This document shows positions 5,764-42,659 of a DNA stretch of 43,024 nucleotides, in pieces. Origin of the DNA: Treponemataceae bacterium (GTDB lineage: Bacteria > Spirochaetota > Spirochaetia > Treponematales > Treponemataceae); NCBI GenBank assembly GCA_024680915.1, contig JAILBN010000087.1:1-43024 (forward strand). The letters are read 5' to 3'. Under the pieces are notes generated by a model. It searched no databases. It was not told where the DNA came from and saw nothing but the letters and a program-made list of their open reading frames with translations. Position numbers and translations under genes: made by a program. Every line of letters begins with the position of its first letter. The first letter of the stretch is position 1.

Positions 5764-5792
5764 TTGACAAGAGGAGGTCAATTCACTAACAT
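5764..5792 (+). promoter_or_regulatory. asnB promoter
   Basis: TTGACA (5764-5769), 17-bp spacer, TAACAT (5787-5792). The predicted RNA start is near 5799, three bases before the antiterminator hairpin. Confidence 0.75.
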
Positions 5793-5801
5793 AAAAGCAT
5801 C

Positions 5802-5866
5802 ACGACAAAGAGGTCGTAGATAATGGTTCGAATACTCGAATCACTGTCTACGGCCTCTTTTTTTTT
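5802..5866 (+). promoter_or_regulatory. ANTAR-type attenuator of asnB (hexaloop hairpin plus terminator)
   Basis: The hairpin ACGAC-[AAAGAG]-GTCGT (5802-5817) has A at loop position 1 and G at position 4. Its loop and 3' arm (5807-5820) also pair with TCTACGGCCTCTTT (5847-5860) to form a terminator ending in a T run at 5866. The two folds exclude each other. An ANTAR protein holding the first hairpin would prevent termination and allow asnB expression. Confidence 0.82.
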
Positions 5867-15499: not shown

Positions 15500-16678
15500 A
15501 TGTACACAGAAAGCGAAGTTTTGGATTATGTGAAAGAAGAGGATGTTAAGTTTGTCCGCCTTGCCTTTTTTGACTTAAAGGGTGTTCAGAAGAATATCTC
15601 CATTATGGCGGGTCAGCTGGAAAATGCCTTCCGCAACGGGGTCAGCTTTGATGCCTCGGCCATATACGGCTTTGAGAAAGCTGAGAAATCCGACCTCTTT
15701 CTATTTCCTGATCCTGCCACCCTTTCTGTTCTTCCCTGGCGCCCAACTGCAGGTAAGGTAGTCAGAATGTTCTGTACCATAAAATACCCAGATGGCCGGG
15801 AATATGAGAAGGATTGCCGCACCCTGCTCCGCAATACCGTTAAAAGGGCAAAGGATGAGTACGGCATAGATTTCAGAATCGGTACGGAGATTGAATTTTA
15901 CCTCTTTAAGCTTGATGAGAAGGGTGAGCCCACAAAGATTCCTTTCGATAACGCCAGGTATATGGATATTGCCCCCATGGATAAGGGAGAGAATATCAGA
16001 CGGGAAATCTGCTTTACACTGGAGCAGATGGGTATTCAGCCTGAGACCAGTCACCACGAGGAAGGTCCCGGCCAGAACGAGATAGACTTCCATTACTCCG
16101 ATGCGGTGACTGCCGCAGATAATGCCGCTACCTTCAAGTGGATTGTCCGGACTCGGGCTGCCAATGCAGGACTTTATGCGGATTTCTCCCCTAAACCCCT
16201 GGAGAATGAGGCTGGAAGCGGACTGCATATAAACCTCTCCTGCTCAGATTCTTCTAAAAATCTCAATGCCCTGGCAGGAATACTCAAACATGCGGAGGAA
16301 ATCACCTATTACCTTAATTGCAAGGGAGAGTCTTACCTAAGATTGGGTGAGAAGAAAGCACCCAAGTATATCTGCTGGGGACCGGAGAACCGCCTTGCCC
16401 TTATCCGACTGCCGGCTGTGACCACGGCCTCTTCCCAGCGTCTGGAGATACGCTCCGCTGACTGCGAATGCAATATCTATCTTGTGCTTAATCTTTTGAT
16501 TCATGCCGCACTGGATGGAATAAAGAATAATCTGGAGCCGCCGGCAGCCATGGCGGGTGACGGCATGAGTGAACAGCTGGCAAAGGACGCAGGGCTTAAA
16601 AGCCTGCCTTCATCCCTGGACGAGGCGAAAAGGCTTGCGGAAGCCAGCAGCTTCGTCAAGGAAGCTCTTGGCTTTTAG
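15500..16678 (+). CDS. glnA: Glutamine synthetase-like protein (type I family, short form)
   Basis: A 392-residue member of the GSI family (usual 440-470). Family marks in order: FDASAIYGF with Asp51 (E. coli Asp50), metal ligands Glu130 and Glu132 in TEIEF, Glu188 and Glu194 in HHEEGPGQNEID, and His243 in GSGLHINLS. They continue with Arg281, Arg298 and Arg303 in the flap/NRLALIRLP region, then Arg314-Glu316. The flap position that carries catalytic Glu327 in GSI (normally EAP) is Lys286 in GEKKAP. The metal site is therefore kept while a catalytic residue is changed. It could be a poor enzyme, a variant ligase or a nitrogen sensor. GAGGTG precedes ATG. It lies between carB2 (43 bases) and the ANTAR gene (9 bases), so a shared operon is likely. 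Confidence 0.88.
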   Translation: MYTESEVLDYVKEEDVKFVRLAFFDLKGVQKNISIMAGQLENAFRNGVSFDASAIYGFEKAEKSDLFLFPDPATLSVLPWRPTAGKVVRMFCTIKYPDGREYEKDCRTLLRNTVKRAKDEYGIDFRIGTEIEFYLFKLDEKGEPTKIPFDNARYMDIAPMDKGENIRREICFTLEQMGIQPETSHHEEGPGQNEIDFHYSDAVTAADNAATFKWIVRTRAANAGLYADFSPKPLENEAGSGLHINLSCSDSSKNLNALAGILKHAEEITYYLNCKGESYLRLGEKKAPKYICWGPENRLALIRLPAVTTASSQRLEIRSADCECNIYLVLNLLIHAALDGIKNNLEPPAAMAGDGMSEQLAKDAGLKSLPSSLDEAKRLAEASSFVKEALGF

Positions 16679-16687
16679 GGGAATTAA

Positions 16688-17254
16688 ATGACTGCTGATA
16701 CACACAGCGTTCTTGTGGTGACGAAGGACAGTAAGCTTTCCTCCATGACCAGCACCTTCCTTATGCCTCCTCTTTTTGACACTCAGATTGTGGGTGATTT
16801 CAACGAGGCCCGCCGTATGACCTCCGAGCGTGTCTACAATATAGTGCTGGTGGATTATGGTGAAGGAGCCGGCGTGGATTTTGCCAGGGACCTTTCGGAT
16901 TCTCTCAGTACTATCCTTTTGCTTACACCCCAGACCCTTTACGAGGAGATAAGCTACCGGGTGGAAGGCTACGGTATAATAACGGTGGGCACACCCTTTG
17001 ACCAGTTCATCTTTTACAACAACCTTAAGACTGCCATTGCAGTCAGCTACAAGGTGAAGATGCTGCAAAGCCAGACTACAAAGCTTAAGATAAAGATGGA
17101 GGAGATCCGCCTGGTCAATCGTGCCAAGATGCTGCTTATGCAGACCTTGAAGCTGACGGAGCAGGAAGCCCATCACTATATTGAGAAGGAAGCCATGAAC
17201 CGCGGCCTTAGAAAGACCGCAGTCGCTGAGGAGATTATCAAAACCTACGGTTGA
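16688..17254 (+). CDS. ANTAR-domain transcription antiterminator (atypical receiver)
   Basis: The 188-residue protein has an N-terminal receiver-like domain (about 6-120), a coiled linker, and a C-terminal ANTAR RNA-binding domain (about 130-186). The ANTAR part shows the three-helix pattern with VNRAKMLLMQTLKLTEQEAH and the AMNRG turn. The receiver keeps Asp56 and Thr80 but has only one N-terminal acidic residue (Asp14) and Thr102 in place of the conserved Lys. Phosphorylation control is therefore doubtful. ANTAR proteins (AmiR, NasR, EutV) bind hexaloop RNA hairpins and block terminators. Clostridia are known to carry an AmiR-like gene next to glnA. Here the gene follows glnA-like after nine bases and is the obvious regulator of the eight hexaloop attenuators in this window. 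Confidence 0.92.
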   Translation: MTADTHSVLVVTKDSKLSSMTSTFLMPPLFDTQIVGDFNEARRMTSERVYNIVLVDYGEGAGVDFARDLSDSLSTILLLTPQTLYEEISYRVEGYGIITVGTPFDQFIFYNNLKTAIAVSYKVKMLQSQTTKLKIKMEEIRLVNRAKMLLMQTLKLTEQEAHHYIEKEAMNRGLRKTAVAEEIIKTYG

Positions 17255-25814: not shown

Positions 25815-25880
25815 AAGAAAAAAAGACGTCGTAAAAAATGCCCGACATTCTCAGACTCTTTTTACGGCGTCTTTGCCATA
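25815..25880 (-). promoter_or_regulatory. ANTAR-type attenuator of purF
   Basis: Read on the minus strand, TATGGC-[AAAGAC]-GCCGTA (25880 to 25863) is a six-pair stem with one wobble and loop A1, G4. The segment AAAGACGCCGTAAAAA alternatively pairs with TTTTTTACGACGTCTTT, followed by T residues to about 25815. Confidence 0.82.
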
Positions 25881-25889
25881 CACCTAGCC

Positions 25890-25918
25890 ATTATTGTGAA
25901 ATGGAGCCTTAATGTCAA
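25890..25918 (-). promoter_or_regulatory. purF promoter
   Basis: Minus strand TTGACA (25918-25913), 17-bp spacer, AATAAT (25895-25890). The RNA start is predicted near 25883, three bases before the hairpin. Confidence 0.72.
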
Positions 25919-30586: not shown

Positions 30587-30632
30587 TAATCAAGTAGGCA
30601 TCTACTTGTCAATCAGGTAGTTATCTACTTGA
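30587..30632 (-). repeat. 23-bp tandem duplication across the gltD stop codon
   Basis: Two 23-bp units lie at 30632-30610 and 30609-30587 (minus strand), about 18 of 23 bases alike. The gene reads QVDNYLIDK-stop. The second unit, in another frame, reads QVDAYLITG-stop and begins inside the last codons of the gene. Confidence 0.75.
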
Positions 30633-32245
30633 TTCGCGCACTGACGACCTTCTGCAATAGCCCATACTACCAGGGATTGTCCCCGGTGCATGTCTCCGGC
30701 GGTAAAGACCTTTGCCCTTGTCGTGGCAAAGCCGGAGGGGCTGGTGCTGTAGTCACTGGCTGGGGCTGTCTCCGCCTGCTGGACCACGGATTTTACCCGG
30801 CCTCTTTCGTCAAGCTCCACACCGAATGCCCTGGCTGTATATTCCTCACATCCGGTGAAGCCTGCCGCAACGAGGAGCAGGTCACAGGGTAGAGTCTTTT
30901 CCGTACCCTGCCTTTCCACAAGCTGGCGTTTCCCGTCTATCATCTTAAACCCTACCTCCACAGTGGTGACTGCCCTGATATGGCCTTCCTGGCTGAGGAC
31001 TTCCTTCACTGTTGTCTCGTAAATGCGGGGGTCATGGCCGAACTTTGCGATAGATTCCTCCGCCCCGTAATCCACCTTAAGGGTTTTAGGCCACTCCGGC
31101 CATGGATTGCTGGCGGCCCTTTCTGCAGGAGGGCAGGGCATCATCTCTATCTGTGTTACGGATTTACAGCCCAGACGGATGGCTGAGCCGCAGCAGTCGT
31201 TTCCTGTATCTCCTCCTCCCACTATGATCACATGCTTACCTGCCACCTCTATTCCCTGGCGTTCCAGAAGCATCTCTGCGATCTGGCCGTTGGTGGGCTC
31301 CATGCCTATCTGATGAAGGGCTTCACTGGTGGCGATTACACATTTCGTCACTGCTGAAAGAAAGTCTACTGCAAAGAGCATTCCTCCCTCCGCACCCTTA
31401 TGGCCTGAAGAAAGCTCGTTTACTCCTGCGGCTCCCAGCTGCCGGGCTTTTTTTGCCCCGCAGCAAAGGACCACTGCATCGAATTCCGTCAGAATATGAT
31501 CCGCTGAGATTGACCTTCCCACATCCGCATTGAATACGAATTCCACACCTTCATCCTTCATCAGCTTTATGCGTCGTTCTATTATGTTTTTCTCCAGCTT
31601 CATGTTGGGGATTCCGTACATCAGAAGTCCACCGGCCTTGTCCTCTCTTTCATAAACTGTAACGCTGTGTCCTCGCCTGTTGAGCCAGTCCGCAGCCGCC
31701 AGTCCGGAGGGGCCTGCTCCTATGACAGCGATTTTTTTCCCGCTTCTGTGGGCAGGGGGCTCCGGCTTCATGTAGCCTGTCTCAAAGGCCTTTTCTATTA
31801 TGAAAAGTTCATTGTCATGAACGGTGACAGGGCCTGCCCCCGGTTCTCCTTCAGAGGAGATGCCGTCCAGTCCCATTCCCATGACCACGGGACTGCCGCA
31901 GTTACAGGCTTTTTCACAGAGGGCAGGGCAGACCCTTCCTGTGAATTCCGGAAAGCTGGAGGTTTTCAAAAGTCTCCAGGCGGCCATGTCGAACTGTCCC
32001 TTGTAGAGGGCATCGTTCCATTCCGGGATATAATTGTGGAGGGGGCAGCCTGTGACCATTCCTTTAAGCTTTATGGCAGAGCCACACATGGGAACTCCGC
32101 AGTTCATGCAGCGGGCAGCCTGTTCCCGCCTGGCCTTCTCATCCAGCTTAGGGTGGAACTCCCTGAAATTAGTGATTCTCTCCAGGGGAGGAAGCTTTCC
32201 GTTCTCAATTCTTGTATATTCCATGAATCCTTGTGCTTTTGACAT
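30602..32245 (-). CDS. gltD: Glutamate synthase small subunit
   Basis: GltD takes electrons from NADPH through FAD and passes them to GltB for glutamate synthesis. The start at 32245 has AGGAGG seven bases upstream and gives MSKAQGFMEY. Near the N-terminus are Fe-S cysteines (CMNCGVPMCG, then GCPLHNYIPEW). The FAD site is IAVIGAGPSGLAAADWL, the NADPH site VIIVGGGDTGNDC, and the C-terminal FAD motif is FTAGDMHRGQSLVVWAI. At 547 residues it is longer than usual (about 480-490), with extra loops near SSEGEPGAGPV and SSGHKGAEGG. It follows gltB after 17 bases, so both depend on the gltB leader. Confidence 0.96.
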   Translation of the reverse strand: MSKAQGFMEYTRIENGKLPPLERITNFREFHPKLDEKARREQAARCMNCGVPMCGSAIKLKGMVTGCPLHNYIPEWNDALYKGQFDMAAWRLLKTSSFPEFTGRVCPALCEKACNCGSPVVMGMGLDGISSEGEPGAGPVTVHDNELFIIEKAFETGYMKPEPPAHRSGKKIAVIGAGPSGLAAADWLNRRGHSVTVYEREDKAGGLLMYGIPNMKLEKNIIERRIKLMKDEGVEFVFNADVGRSISADHILTEFDAVVLCCGAKKARQLGAAGVNELSSGHKGAEGGMLFAVDFLSAVTKCVIATSEALHQIGMEPTNGQIAEMLLERQGIEVAGKHVIIVGGGDTGNDCCGSAIRLGCKSVTQIEMMPCPPAERAASNPWPEWPKTLKVDYGAEESIAKFGHDPRIYETTVKEVLSQEGHIRAVTTVEVGFKMIDGKRQLVERQGTEKTLPCDLLLVAAGFTGCEEYTARAFGVELDERGRVKSVVQQAETAPASDYSTSPSGFATTRAKVFTAGDMHRGQSLVVWAIAEGRQCANQVDNYLIDK

Positions 32246-32262
32246 GTTTTCCTCCTGTTTTC

Positions 32263-35200
32263 CTACGCTGTGCATTTTTTGAAGGCTGCAAGGACTGCGT
32301 CCTCCGGCTTCATTCCGTTGCGTTCTTGGGCTGCGATCTCTGTCTTTATGCGGAGATAGTCCTTGGGGATTATTTTCTTGAAGCAGGTGCGGTAATGAGA
32401 CCAGTCGGCTAGTATTTCCTGGGCTCTTTCGCTGCCTGTCTCTGTGGCATGCAGGCTTATCAGGGTGTAAAGGTAATCCTCATCCCTTTTGTCCTGAAGG
32501 GTGGTGGTCTCGTCATCCAGGGCATACATTTTCACCAGCTCATGGTTCAGCCGCTTGTAGAGGTCGTGCTTTTCGTCCAGTACATAGGCGACCCCTCCGC
32601 TCATTCCGGCGCATAGGTTCTTGCCCGTATCTCCCAGGATTACCGCAGTGCCCCCTGTCATGTACTCAAGTCCGTGGTCGCCGCAGCCTTCAGCCACTAC
32701 GGTGGCTCCGGAATTACGCACGCAGAAGCGCTCTCCTGCGACTCCGTTTATAAAGGCACTTCCGCTTGTGGCTCCGAACAAAGCCACATTCCCTACGATT
32801 ATGTTTTTGTCAGCGTCGCCCTCAAAGCCCTCTGCCTTTTTCACCACAAGCTTTCCACCGCTAAGGCCCTTGCCAAAAGCATCGTTGGCGTCACCTGTAA
32901 GACGTAAAGAAAGTCCTCTTGGAATGAAGGCACCGAAGCTTTGCCCCGCTCCTCCGGTGAAGTTCACGCAGAAGCTGTCCTCCTGCAGTGAGTTGCCGAA
33001 GCTCTTTTGTATCTGGCTTCCCAAAATTGTTCCTGCCGTTCTGTCCGTGGACTGTATGGGGATGGACTGACTATACTGGCAAGCCACTGCTTTAAGGTCG
33101 CCCATGCCGGAGTTGGAGCTATACTTACATAAGACCCCCTCTTTGCCGGAGGTCTGCTTTTTGTCTGCCAGCAGCTTATCCAGCCAGGGCAGGAGGATTT
33201 TTTCGTCAATGGTCTTTTCTAAGCCGAAGTCGTAAAGGGAGCGGTCAGCTTTCCATGAATCAGAGCTCTGCCTTGTGTCTGCTCCTTGCTTTGTATCTGA
33301 AGATGACACTGCAGCAGCTTGGGAAGATGTGGCAGCAGAGGATGCGCAAACTGCTCCACTGCCTGCCTCGGACTCTGATGCCAGGACTCGGCTCAAATCC
33401 ACAAGGTCTGAGCGCTTAAAGCCCTGTCTTTCCTTGAGCTTGAGCAGATCGCTACGGCCACACAGCTCATTCAGGGTCTTTACACCCAGCTTTGCCATAA
33501 GCTCCCTCATTTCCTGGGCTATGAACTTCATGAAGTTCTCCACGTATTCAGGCTTTCCCGGGAACCTGGAGCGTAGCTTCTCATTCTGGGTGGCCACACC
33601 GAAGGGACAGGTATCAAGCTGGCAGACCCTCATCATGGAGCAGCCCATGGAGATAAGGGGAGCTGTGGCAAAGCCGAATTCCTCTGCTCCCAGCAAGGCC
33701 GCTATCACCACGTCACGGCCGCTCATAAGCTTGCCGTCGGTTTCTATGACCACCCGGCCCCGGAGCCCGTTCTGTATCAAGCTTTGGTGGGTTTCTGCCA
33801 GACCCAGCTCCCAGGGGAGTCCTGCATGATGGATGGAGCTTATGGGAGCCGCTCCTGTTCCTCCGTCGTGGCCGCTTATCAAAATAACCTGGGCTCCGGC
33901 CTTGGCCACGCCGGCTGCGATTGTTCCGACTCCCGCTTCGCTTACCAGCTTCACTGAGATACGGGCCTCACGATTTGCGTTCTTCAAATCGTAGATAAGC
34001 TGAGCCAAGTCCTCTATGGAATAGATGTCGTGGTGGGGTGGGGGTGAGATCAAAGCCACTCCCGGTGTGGCATAGCGGGTTTTCGCAATCCAGGGATAAA
34101 CCTTTTTGCCGGGCAGGTGGCCGCCCTCCCCAGGCTTGGCACCCTGGGCCATCTTTATCTGAATCTCCCTGGCGCTCAGAAGATATTCCTCCGTCACTCC
34201 GAAGCGTCCGGAGGCGACCTGCTTGATGGCCGAGTTGTATTCCGTCCCAAGCCTCTCCGGCTTTTCTCCACCCTCACCGCTGTTGGATTTACCGTGAAGG
34301 TGGTTCATGGCGGCGGCCATGCATTTGTGAGCTTCCTCACTTATGGAGCCGTAGGACATGGCACCAGTCTTAAAGTGCTGGACTATGGACTCCACGCTCT
34401 CTACCTGGTCCAGGGGGATACCTCCGTCCGGGGCAAAGGCAAAATCCAGCATGGCACGGAGGGTGTGGGGATGCTCGTTGGAATCCACCAAGGCCGTATA
34501 TTCCTTGAAGCGCTCATAATCCCCGTTCCTGGTGGCCTGCTGCAGGGCAACTATAGTCTCAGGGTTATAGAGGTGGCTTTCTGCTGTGGGCCCCATACGG
34601 AGCTTGTGATTTCCCACAGAATCCAAATGCTGGTTAACGGTGAGTCCCGCCGGATCGAAGCCCTGGGCGTGATGGTAGCGCACATCCTCCTCAATTTCCT
34701 TAAGGCCTATACCGCCAACCCTGCTCACTGTATTCGTAAAATATTTCTCAACCACATCCTGGGCTATGCCAACAGCCTCAAAAATCTGAGCTGACTGGTA
34801 GGACTGGATGGTGCTTATTCCCATCTTGGCCGCAATTTTCACAATTCCGTTTATGATGCCCTTGTTGTAGTCGTCTATGGCCGTGTGATAATCCTTGTCC
34901 AAAAGCTTTTGGTCTATGAGCTCTGCTATGGCTTCATGGGCCAGGTAGGGGTTCACTGCCCGGGCACCGTAGCTCAGGCACATGGCGGCCTGATGCACGT
35001 CCCTGACCTCCGCGCTCTCAAGGATTATGGAGACGGCGGTTCTTTTTTTCGTCCGGATCAGATACTGCTCCACCGCAGAGACTGCCAGAATTGCCGGGAT
35101 GGCTGCATGGCTTTTGTCCACGTCCCTGTCACTGAGGATGATAATGTTATATCCCTCGGCGTAGGCCTGGTCTATTCCTTTGAAAAGCTTGTCCAGAGCT

Positions 35201-37095
35201 TTTTCCAGCAAGGGGGAGTCTGAAGTCTTTTCCTCCAAATCGAAAAGGAGGGAAAGTGTCTTAGCTTTAAGACCATTTGAGTCCAGGACCGCAATCTTCA
35301 TCAGGTCGGTTCCAGTAAGAATCGGGTTATTGATCTCCAGAACCCGGCAGTTTTTAGCCTGGGGCTCCAAAAGGTTTCCGTCCTTTCCCACATAGACTGT
35401 GGTGTCCGTGACGATTTTCTCCCTGAGACTGTCTATGGGCGGGTTCGTTACCTGGGCAAAAAGCTGCTTGAAATAGCTGAAAAGGCTTTGGTGCTTCTCG
35501 CTCATCACTGCCAGAGGTGTATCAATTCCCATACTGGCGGTGGGCTCCACTCCGTTTTGTGCCAGGGGCAGGACCATCTCGTTCACATCCTCGTAATTCC
35601 AGCCGAAGGCCCGGTAGAGGATATTTCTTTCTTCCAGTGTGTGGACAGGAATCTTTTTGTTGGGAATCTTCAGGCTGGAAAGATGGACAAGGTTCATATC
35701 CAGCCATTCGCCGTAAGGATAAAGCTTGGCGTACTGGGTCTTGCATTCCTCGTCGCTGATGATTTTTTTCTGGACTGTATCCACCAAAAGTATTCGTCCT
35801 GGCTGCAGGCGGGACTTTATCTTGATATTCTCCTCCGGGATATCCAGAACCCCCACCTCACTGGACAGGATAAGCATACCGTCCTTCGTGATGTAGTAAC
35901 GGCTGGGGCGAAGACCATTACGGTCGAGGGTAGCTCCCAGAAGGTCGCCGTCGCTGAAGAGGATGGCGGCAGGTCCGTCCCAGCTTTCCATCATGGTTGC
36001 CCAGTAATGGTAGAAATCCTTTTTCAGCGGGCTCATGTTGTCGTCATGCTTCCAGGGCTCCGGGATGCACATCATCACAGCCAGGGGCAGGGGAAGTCCG
36101 TTCATAAGCAGGAACTCCAGAGTATTGTCCAGCATGGCGGAGTCGGAACCGCTGGTATCCACCGCAGGCAGAACCTGCTTCATTTCGCCCTCAGAAAGCT
36201 TGGTGGACTGTAGGGTTTCTTCCCGGGCCAGCATCCTGTCAACATTTCCCCGGATAGTATTGATTTCTCCGTTGTGGGCTATGAAGCGGTTGGGGTGTGC
36301 CCGCTGCCAGCTGGGCTGGGTGTTGGTGGAGAAGCGGGAGTGGACTATGGCCAGGGCGGACTTGTAATCCTCTGACTGAAGGTCTGTGTAGAAGGTGCGG
36401 AGCTGGTGGACAAGGAACATGCCCTTGTAGACTATGGTACGGGAGGAAAGGGAGCAGACATAGCTTTTGGAGGAGGAAGCCTGCTTGCAGCTTTCCTCAG
36501 TTGCCTGGCCCTTCTCAAAGTCCCGCCTTAGAACATAAAGACGGCGGTCAAAGTCCAAGCCCTTTGCACACTCCTCCTGGCCCTTTTTCCCCTCCGGACG
36601 GGCTATAAAGCACTGCCAAATCTCAGGCATACAGACCAGGGCCTTCTTTCCCAGAACCTGAGCCTTGGTGGGAACTTTTCTCCAGCCTATAAGCCTTAAG
36701 CCATGAGAGGCGCAGCAGCTTTCGAAGCGGAGCTTTTCAGACTCAAAGGACTGGGCTGGGAAAAAGAACATACCGATACCGTAGTCCCTCTCGTCTCCCA
36801 GCGAAAGGCTGCCGTCCGGAGTCAGAATCTCTCCCTTCCTTGCCACCTCCGTGAAAAAGTCGTGACTTATCTGAAGAAGGATTCCCACTCCATCTCCGGT
36901 CTCCCCGGAAGCGTCCTTTCCTGCACGGTGCTCCAGTTTTTCTACTATGCTCAGGGCATTGTCCACGATTTTGTGGCTTTTTTTGCCGTCAATGTTTACC
37001 ACCGCCCCTATTCCACAAGCGTCATGTTCGAAGGAAGCTTCGTAAAGGGTCTTCCTTATGCTTTCTTTTGTGGTCCTTTCATTCTCTTTCATCAT
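32263..37095 (-). CDS. gltB: Glutamate synthase large subunit
   Basis: GltB transfers the amide of glutamine to 2-oxoglutarate. The start is set at 37095 (ATGATG after GGGGAAGG); the longer opening runs back through terminator 2. A propeptide of about 26 residues ends before nucleophile Cys27 in DACGIGAVV. The class II glutaminase domain is followed by the central domain, then the FMN domain with GEGGEKPERLG. The [3Fe-4S] cysteines lie in CQLDTCPFGVATQ, and a C-terminal Gly-rich beta-helix contains GGTAVILGDTGKN. The length, about 1610, is above the usual 1480-1530. Most of the excess is a Ser/Ala-rich insert near EAGSGAVCASSAATSSQ, before the last domain. Two attenuators in series precede the gene. 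Confidence 0.97.
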   Translation of the reverse strand: MMKENERTTKESIRKTLYEASFEHDACGIGAVVNIDGKKSHKIVDNALSIVEKLEHRAGKDASGETGDGVGILLQISHDFFTEVARKGEILTPDGSLSLGDERDYGIGMFFFPAQSFESEKLRFESCCASHGLRLIGWRKVPTKAQVLGKKALVCMPEIWQCFIARPEGKKGQEECAKGLDFDRRLYVLRRDFEKGQATEESCKQASSSKSYVCSLSSRTIVYKGMFLVHQLRTFYTDLQSEDYKSALAIVHSRFSTNTQPSWQRAHPNRFIAHNGEINTIRGNVDRMLAREETLQSTKLSEGEMKQVLPAVDTSGSDSAMLDNTLEFLLMNGLPLPLAVMMCIPEPWKHDDNMSPLKKDFYHYWATMMESWDGPAAILFSDGDLLGATLDRNGLRPSRYYITKDGMLILSSEVGVLDIPEENIKIKSRLQPGRILLVDTVQKKIISDEECKTQYAKLYPYGEWLDMNLVHLSSLKIPNKKIPVHTLEERNILYRAFGWNYEDVNEMVLPLAQNGVEPTASMGIDTPLAVMSEKHQSLFSYFKQLFAQVTNPPIDSLREKIVTDTTVYVGKDGNLLEPQAKNCRVLEINNPILTGTDLMKIAVLDSNGLKAKTLSLLFDLEEKTSDSPLLEKALDKLFKGIDQAYAEGYNIIILSDRDVDKSHAAIPAILAVSAVEQYLIRTKKRTAVSIILESAEVRDVHQAAMCLSYGARAVNPYLAHEAIAELIDQKLLDKDYHTAIDDYNKGIINGIVKIAAKMGISTIQSYQSAQIFEAVGIAQDVVEKYFTNTVSRVGGIGLKEIEEDVRYHHAQGFDPAGLTVNQHLDSVGNHKLRMGPTAESHLYNPETIVALQQATRNGDYERFKEYTALVDSNEHPHTLRAMLDFAFAPDGGIPLDQVESVESIVQHFKTGAMSYGSISEEAHKCMAAAMNHLHGKSNSGEGGEKPERLGTEYNSAIKQVASGRFGVTEEYLLSAREIQIKMAQGAKPGEGGHLPGKKVYPWIAKTRYATPGVALISPPPHHDIYSIEDLAQLIYDLKNANREARISVKLVSEAGVGTIAAGVAKAGAQVILISGHDGGTGAAPISSIHHAGLPWELGLAETHQSLIQNGLRGRVVIETDGKLMSGRDVVIAALLGAEEFGFATAPLISMGCSMMRVCQLDTCPFGVATQNEKLRSRFPGKPEYVENFMKFIAQEMRELMAKLGVKTLNELCGRSDLLKLKERQGFKRSDLVDLSRVLASESEAGSGAVCASSAATSSQAAAVSSSDTKQGADTRQSSDSWKADRSLYDFGLEKTIDEKILLPWLDKLLADKKQTSGKEGVLCKYSSNSGMGDLKAVACQYSQSIPIQSTDRTAGTILGSQIQKSFGNSLQEDSFCVNFTGGAGQSFGAFIPRGLSLRLTGDANDAFGKGLSGGKLVVKKAEGFEGDADKNIIVGNVALFGATSGSAFINGVAGERFCVRNSGATVVAEGCGDHGLEYMTGGTAVILGDTGKNLCAGMSGGVAYVLDEKHDLYKRLNHELVKMYALDDETTTLQDKRDEDYLYTLISLHATETGSERAQEILADWSHYRTCFKKIIPKDYLRIKTEIAAQERNGMKPEDAVLAAFKKCTA

Positions 37096-37144: not shown

Positions 37145-37197
37145 AAAAAAAGCCGCACCTACAGAAAGACTTTCCTGCGGATGCGGCTTCGTTGCCG
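37145..37197 (-). promoter_or_regulatory. Second ANTAR-type attenuator of gltB
   Basis: Minus strand CGGC-[AACGAA]-GCCG (37197 to 37184), loop A1 and G4. Its 3' arm is the start of a terminator pairing GCCGCATCC with GGTGCGGC, followed by seven T (to 37145). It lies about 100 bases downstream of the first module and about 50 bases before the start codon. Confidence 0.72.
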
Positions 37198-37245
37198 ACT
37201 TTGAGATAGCATTGTCTTGGCAGCCTGGCTTTTGGAGGCCGGCCA

Positions 37246-37309
37246 TAAAAAAAGGTCGTAGATATAACCTCGTCCATACACGAAATTTTATCTACGACCT
37301 CTTTGTCGT
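37246..37309 (-). promoter_or_regulatory. First ANTAR-type attenuator of gltB
   Basis: Minus strand ACGAC-[AAAGAG]-GTCGT (37309 to 37294), identical in stem and loop to the asnB hairpin. AGGTCGTAGATA alternatively pairs with TATCTACGACCT near 37264-37253, followed by a T run (to about 37246). Confidence 0.83.
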
Positions 37310-37319
37310 TCTGAAAGGC

Positions 37320-37348
37320 ATACTAATAAAATAATTTGTAAGTGTCAA
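37320..37348 (-). promoter_or_regulatory. gltB promoter
   Basis: Minus strand TTGACA (37348-37343), 17-bp spacer, TAGTAT (37325-37320). RNA start near 37313, about four bases before the hairpin. Back to back with the dapF promoter; the two -35 boxes are 37 bp apart. Confidence 0.78.
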
Positions 37349-37385: not shown

Positions 37386-37414
37386 TTGACAATTTTTTTT
37401 CAAAACTGTATAAG
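37386..37414 (+). promoter_or_regulatory. dapF promoter
   Basis: TTGACA (37386-37391), 17-bp spacer, TATAAG (37409-37414). RNA start near 37421, about six bases before the hairpin stem. Confidence 0.78.
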
Positions 37415-37426
37415 CAAAATATAAGA

Positions 37427-37474
37427 CGACAAAGAGGTCGCAAAGTTTTTTTACTTTGCGGCCTCTTTTTTTTT
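37427..37474 (+). promoter_or_regulatory. ANTAR-type attenuator of dapF
   Basis: CGAC-[AAAGAG]-GTCG (37427-37440), loop A1 and G4. AAAGAGGTCGCAAAGT (37431-37446) alternatively pairs with ACTTTGCGGCCTCTTT (37453-37468), followed by T residues to 37474. Confidence 0.82.
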
Positions 37475-37520
37475 GCTTCAGCCCGCTTCAGAGCAGAAAG
37501 AGTATGAGCAGGCGGAGGCA

Positions 37521-38040
37521 AGGTCAGGGGCAGCCTCAAAACTGCCGCACCGGCACGGTCAGGGGCAACCTCAAAACTGCCGCCACCGGCAAGGACAGAG
37601 GCAGCCTCAAAAACTGCCGCTACCGGCAAGGTCAGGGGCAGCCTCAAAACTGCCGCTACCGGCAAGGTCAGGGGCAGCCTCAAAAACTGCCGCACCGGCA
37701 AGGGCAGTGGCAACCGCAAAACTGCCGCCACCGGCAAGGTCAGGGGCCGCCTCAAAAACTGCCACCACCGGCAAGGACAGGGGCAGCCTCAAAAACTGCC
37801 GCTACCGGCACGGTCAGGGGCAGCCTCAAAACTGCCGCACCGGCACGGTCAGGGGCAGCCTCAAAAACTGCCGCACCGGCACGGGCAGGGGCAGCCTCAA
37901 AACTGCCGCCACCGGCACGGACAGGGGCAGCCTCAAAAACTGCCGCCACCGGCAAGGACAAAGGCAGCTTCAAAAACTGCCGCACCGGCAAGGGCAAAGG
38001 CAGCCTCAAAAACTGCCGCTACCGGCACGGTCAGGGGCCT
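37521..38040 (+). repeat. Tandem array of 35-37 bp units in the dapF leader
   Basis: Fourteen full units and a partial fifteenth lie between the attenuator and the dapF ribosome site. Each contains GGCAG, CCTCAAAA(A) and CTGCC, a small hairpin, followed by a GC(Y)ACCGGC segment. Units vary by A4/A5 and by GCACC or GCYACC, so reading frames are not preserved. There are no unique spacers, so it is not a CRISPR array. It would be transcribed as a leader RNA of about 600 bases. Confidence 0.92.
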
Positions 38041-42419: not shown

Positions 42420-42448
42420 TTGACATATTTTTTCAGAAATTGTATAAA
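42420..42448 (+). promoter_or_regulatory. glnN promoter
   Basis: TTGACA (42420-42425), 17-bp spacer, TATAAA (42443-42448). RNA start near 42455, about six bases before the hairpin stem. Confidence 0.8.
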
Positions 42449-42460
42449 CGAATTATCAAA

Positions 42461-42502
42461 CGACAATGAGGTCGCGGAAATGATGTTTCTGCGACCTTTT
42501 TT
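42461..42502 (+). promoter_or_regulatory. First ANTAR-type attenuator of glnN
   Basis: CGAC-[AATGAG]-GTCG (42461-42474), loop A1 and G4. GGTCGCGGAAA (42470-42480) alternatively pairs with TTTCTGCGACC (42486-42496), followed by a T run to 42502. Confidence 0.82.
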
Positions 42503-42594
42503 GTTTTCTGACGACTTGTATTATAATCCCGCGAGTTATATGCAGTTTGCTGCATGGAACTCGCCAAACAAAAGTGCGAAAGCATTTTTGAGTA

Positions 42595-42659
42595 TGGCAA
42601 TGGCGCCGCATTTTTTTCCGGGGGACGCCCCGCGAAAAATATTGTGGCGCCTTTTTTTT
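42595..42659 (+). promoter_or_regulatory. Second ANTAR-type attenuator of glnN
   Basis: TGGC-[AATGGC]-GCCG (42595-42608), loop A1 and G4, resembling the purF hairpin. GGCGCCGCA (42602-42610) alternatively pairs with TGTGGCGCC (42643-42651), followed by eight T. Confidence 0.72.

Follow-up and report, generated by a model that had tools for sequence, protein, structure and literature searches.

Two predicted ANTAR-type attenuators in series in the gltB leader of a Treponemataceae bacterium

The gltB leader of this Treponemataceae bacterium probably carries two independent transcription attenuators of the ANTAR type, here called gates, one behind the other on one transcript. It lies in a stretch of 43,024 nt (the window; contig JAILBN010000087.1) of a draft genome of 3.15 Mb in 134 contigs (GCA_024680915.1). 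The order on the minus strand is promoter, gate 1, gate 2 and gltB, with the following features in window coordinates.

37320 to 37348, minus strand: sigma70-type promoter of the gltB leader, TTGACA-17 nt-TAGTAT (from sequence and covariance model R1)
37294 to 37309, minus strand: gate 1 hexaloop hairpin ACGAC[AAAGAG]GTCGT, loop 37304-37299 (from sequence; candidate ANTAR site and antiterminator)
37247 to 37300, minus strand: gate 1 intrinsic terminator, stem 37300-37253 and U-tract to about 37247 (-26.9 kcal/mol)
37184 to 37197, minus strand: gate 2 hexaloop hairpin CGGC[AACGAA]GCCG, loop 37193-37188 (from sequence, with homologues in relatives)
37145 to 37189, minus strand: gate 2 intrinsic terminator, stem 37189-37150 and U-tract to about 37145 (-24.1 kcal/mol)
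32263 to 37095, minus strand: gltB, glutamate synthase large subunit, ATG at 37095 (Pfam GATase_2, Glu_syn_central, Glu_synthase, GXGXG)
30602 to 32275: gltD-like gene, next after gltB (Pfam Pyr_redox_2, Fer4_20)

The sequence-only reading had placed the first hairpin over terminator 1 and the second over terminator 2 about 100 bases downstream, with A1 and G4 in both loops. All of this was confirmed: hairpin 1 (37309-37294) overlaps the stem at 37300-37253, the loops are 111 nt apart, and each loop has six nucleotides, A1 and G4 among them, and caps a short stem, as in classical ANTAR targets. At both gates the 5' arm of the terminator begins inside the hexaloop, indicating that hexaloop and terminator are mutually exclusive, as in ANTAR attenuation. 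Promoter and gate 1 were matched in the genome at 37348-37292 (E 2.5e-6) by R1, a covariance model that combines promoter and hexaloop and was trained on leaders from this family. Rfam gave no matches at the gathering threshold across the whole window. A flank resembling ATCTCaaAG is conserved 5' of the gate 2 stem (about 37206-37198 in the window) in many double-gated gltB leaders from several genera; it is absent before gate 1 and before glnN gate 2, and a search for a pairing partner found none.

The predicted arrangement of two attenuators in series, also proposed in the sequence-only reading, finds good comparative support within the family, where the upstream regions of 113 gltB and 70 glnN copies were scanned. 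Two gates were detected in 25 gltB leaders, one in 52 and none in 36. For glnN the corresponding numbers were 39, 21 and 10, where the window's own glnN gate 2 scores just under the detection threshold used and a few second matches (loops ATAGCA, ACGGCA) seem mis-registered. Two or three gates were present in 12 of 30 amtB leaders, some of these matches again appearing mis-registered. Homologues of gate 2 of the gltB leader were found in G001 (one stem mismatch), G005, G176, G128, G073, G034 and other genomes. Within the genus, G005 has one double-gated and one single-gated gltB copy; both gates are present in G001, whose second stem contains one C-C mismatch, a single gate in G004 and none in G006. 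This variability indicates that gate 2 is an old but optional module. The expectation that close relatives keeping gate 1 would also keep gate 2 therefore held only in part, since 52 of the 77 gated gltB leaders lack a detected gate 2 and the G001 copy is degenerate.

The second terminators of glnN in relatives (e.g., L209, L246 and L253) often share apical sequences like GGTGTACAACGG or GGAGGACGCTCC, and the hairpin has perhaps been copied between leaders. Two hexaloop-terminator units 65 nt apart also occur near an ANTAR gene of the Firmicute Longibaculum muris (L037, minus strand, 4533 and 4468), which suggests that serial gates exist outside Treponema.

The gate detector returned 203 gates in the 183 upstream regions of 400 nt from gltB and glnN; each of 10 dinucleotide shuffles gave 0 or 1, and a further 149 kb from elsewhere in the bacterium's own genome gave none. 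A chance origin of the gates was ruled out by the shuffles, this background and the loop-letter controls. The stem of gate 1 had a covariation score of 0.41, which was reached by 0 of 500 shuffles. A promoter was found before gate 1 in 69 of the 72 double leaders and before gate 2 in one, indicating that both gates are carried on one transcript; on the same count, the idea that gate 2 has its own promoter was rejected.

The genome search detected a single ANTAR gene, located directly behind glnA in the window. The closest named relatives of this locus are Treponema, many of them from the rumen. The gene and the other gated leaders of the window are as follows.

15500 to 16678: glnA
16688 to 17254, plus strand: ANTAR protein gene (PF03861, E 7.9e-15)
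5764 to 5852, plus strand: asnB leader with a single gate (promoter, ACGAC[AAAGAG]GTCGT, terminator)
25830 to 25918, minus strand: purF leader with a single gate (promoter, TATGGC[AAAGAC]GCCGTA, terminator)
37386 to 37467, plus strand: leader with a single gate, divergent from gltB and pointing to the dapF side
42420 to 42608, plus strand: glnN (GSIII) leader with promoter and two gates (from sequence and model R1)
42461 to 42474, plus strand: glnN gate 1, CGAC[AATGAG]GTCG
42595 to 42608, plus strand: glnN gate 2, TGGC[AATGGC]GCCG
42796 to the contig end: glnN (GSIII; Pfam GSIII_N)

Relatives of the ANTAR protein with solved structures are EutV, AmiR and Rv1626. The RNA contacts K149, E160 and Y164 of EutV align with K147, E158 and H162 of the window protein, and these three residues are invariant in 30 Treponemataceae ANTAR proteins. 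The RNA-contact residues are thus kept, apart from EutV Arg142, which is replaced by I140. The N-terminus resembles a degenerate receiver, in that Pfam gives ANTAR only and another residue stands where the PKP motif usually has its Lys. Between the gltB-divergent leader and dapF, a 36-bp unit is repeated in tandem about 14 times (37517-38038, plus strand), and an ORF within this array has no Pfam match.

Six sites in the genome gave strong matches to model R1 (E below 1e-4), at gltB, glnN, asnB, purF, the gltB-divergent leader and amtB (contig C116), and the seventh-ranked match had an E value of 0.41. Several of the six were training leaders and score highly by construction; amtB was not among these, and its ammonium transporter was confirmed by Pfam. 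The genes at these sites indicate a regulon mainly of glutamine and ammonia metabolism. The amtB leader of this genome (L307) has three consecutive terminators, the last with CGGC[GATGAA]GTCG, in which G1 replaces A1 and G4 is retained. Similar sequences also precede amtB in L317, L326, L333 and L334.

Among 195 genomes of the family, an ANTAR match above the cut-off was present in 136 and the element in 118. Both were present in 108 genomes, ANTAR only (an ANTAR gene without a model match) in 28, the element only in 10 and neither in 49 (Fisher P = 2e-16, odds ratio 19), although the association is inflated by genome relatedness and by the use of leaders from this family to train the model, so that the P value overstates independence. 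The 10 element-only genomes are mostly incomplete MAGs, yet G004, G140 and G148 are 92 to 94% complete. Another search covered 59 relatives, and in it the 23 genomes that belong to the order but not to the family had neither ANTAR nor the element.

The strength of this association bears on whether the gates might be read by a factor other than ANTAR, such as another RNA-binding protein or a small RNA. The ten element-bearing genomes without a detected ANTAR gene would fit such a factor, as would the degenerate receiver-like N-terminus of the ANTAR protein. Nevertheless, this reading is very improbable, because published work gives A1/G4 hexaloops over terminators as the ANTAR signature (PMC3369931), the element co-occurs strongly with ANTAR, and the ANTAR gene adjoins glnA in the window. 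It is also highly unlikely that regulation acts at gate 1 only, with gate 2 being an incidental or constitutive terminator, for example a guard against upstream read-through. Beyond gate 1, 60 hexaloops were found to overlap terminators; A1 and G4 are present in 57 of them, and compensatory stem changes also occur. When second terminators were collected without the hexaloop criterion, 61 were found, 54 of them with the A..G register at the arm start. In the second-terminator set the four stem pairs were 83 to 89% paired, compared with permutation means of 56 to 79%, and equaled or exceeded the maximum of 500 permutations. A strong constitutive terminator just before gltB would, moreover, silence the gene. 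The many gated gltB leaders in which gate 2 is absent or undetected (52/77) and the mismatched G001 stem are the observations that favor a role for gate 1 only.

The sequence-only reading had offered, as an alternative to serial gates, that the two hairpins together form the pair bound by an ANTAR dimer. They would then be P1 and P2 of one classical dual-hexaloop site, P1 recruiting and P2 antiterminating, and A1 and G4 in both loops as well as the published model of an EutV dimer that moves from P1 to P2 (PMC8934654) agree with this. The comparison did not support it, and such a pair is extremely unlikely. Loop spacing between the gates varies from 51 to 183 nt with a complete terminator in between, indicating that the hairpins do not form the classical motif, in which P1 and P2 stand close together, with a short linker between them, ahead of the terminator; in EutV, 20 extra nucleotides between P1 and P2 abolish antitermination (PMC8934654). 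Single gates are common at gltB, where they make up most gated leaders, and at asnB and purF. Nor does either gate appear to have a P1 of its own. The -10 box mostly ends 15 to 16 nt ahead of loop 1, so that with the predicted start the gate 1 stem falls at roughly the very beginning of the transcript, with no room for a preceding P1, and an A1/G4 hexaloop just upstream of gate 2 was not enriched (4/84). Every gate is therefore consistent with a single-hexaloop unit as in the minimal motif redefined by Walshe et al. 2022 (PMC8934654), although in EutV it was not demonstrated that a single hexaloop suffices for antitermination (PMC8934654).

For the two independent gates, the following mechanism is proposed. 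Transcription would start at the position predicted from the promoter. By default, RNA polymerase would halt at terminator 1, and any read-through would then meet terminator 2. Active ANTAR protein, presumably when more GS/GOGAT capacity is needed, would hold the single hexaloop at each gate; the held hexaloop would occupy the 5' arm of the terminator, no terminator would form and the polymerase would pass. ANTAR binding and antitermination at the gltB gates are predicted here from hairpin and protein features, and one hexaloop per gate would be enough, with gate 1 at the extreme 5' end of the RNA. Because read-through probabilities multiply when gates are stacked, leakage should fall and fold induction should rise at gltB, glnN and amtB. 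Low leakage with a steep response of the double leader is plausible on this arithmetic. The ammonia-assimilation genes gltB, glnN and amtB would thus be stacked, and asnB and purF would have one gate. A slightly favored extension is that the Treponemataceae ANTAR regulon consists wholly of single-hexaloop antiterminators at transcript starts, with control tuned by the number of serial gates: one at asnB and purF, two at gltB and glnN and up to three at amtB.

The closest parallel is the EutV/EutW system of the eut operon in Enterococcus faecalis, which likewise has A1/G4 hexaloops over intrinsic terminators, an ANTAR effector and several terminators per regulator. In contrast to EutV/EutW, the Treponema leaders have one hexaloop per terminator, at the predicted 5' end of the transcript, the gltB leader holds two complete gates, and no sensor kinase partner was identified. 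Ramesh et al. 2012 (PMC3369931) predicted ANTAR regulons of nitrogen genes by covariance search with a dual-hairpin model, including at least 13 ANTAR elements in six transcription units of Desulfotomaculum acetoxidans. These regulons resemble the present one in that genes for glutamate, glutamine and ammonium carry ANTAR elements, more than one per transcription unit, but the Treponema elements have a single hexaloop; the main text of that paper makes no mention of Treponema. AmiR and NasR share the ANTAR domain, and AmiR also has His at the position of EutV Tyr164, but they differ in having a single target locus with a dual hexaloop, as described in PMC3369931. No paper linking Treponema with an ANTAR domain was found in the open-access literature, and only two there connect ANTAR with a hexaloop; subscription papers lie outside this search, and novelty is provisional.

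Walshe et al. 2022 (PMC8934654), who redefined the minimal ANTAR binding motif from structures as a single hexaloop, asked how widely genomes use such sites. The Treponema leaders provide a large natural set in which only a single hexaloop fits. Their serial copies make the effect of stacked attenuators on the response directly measurable, and the gated leaders suggest how rumen Treponema control ammonia assimilation.
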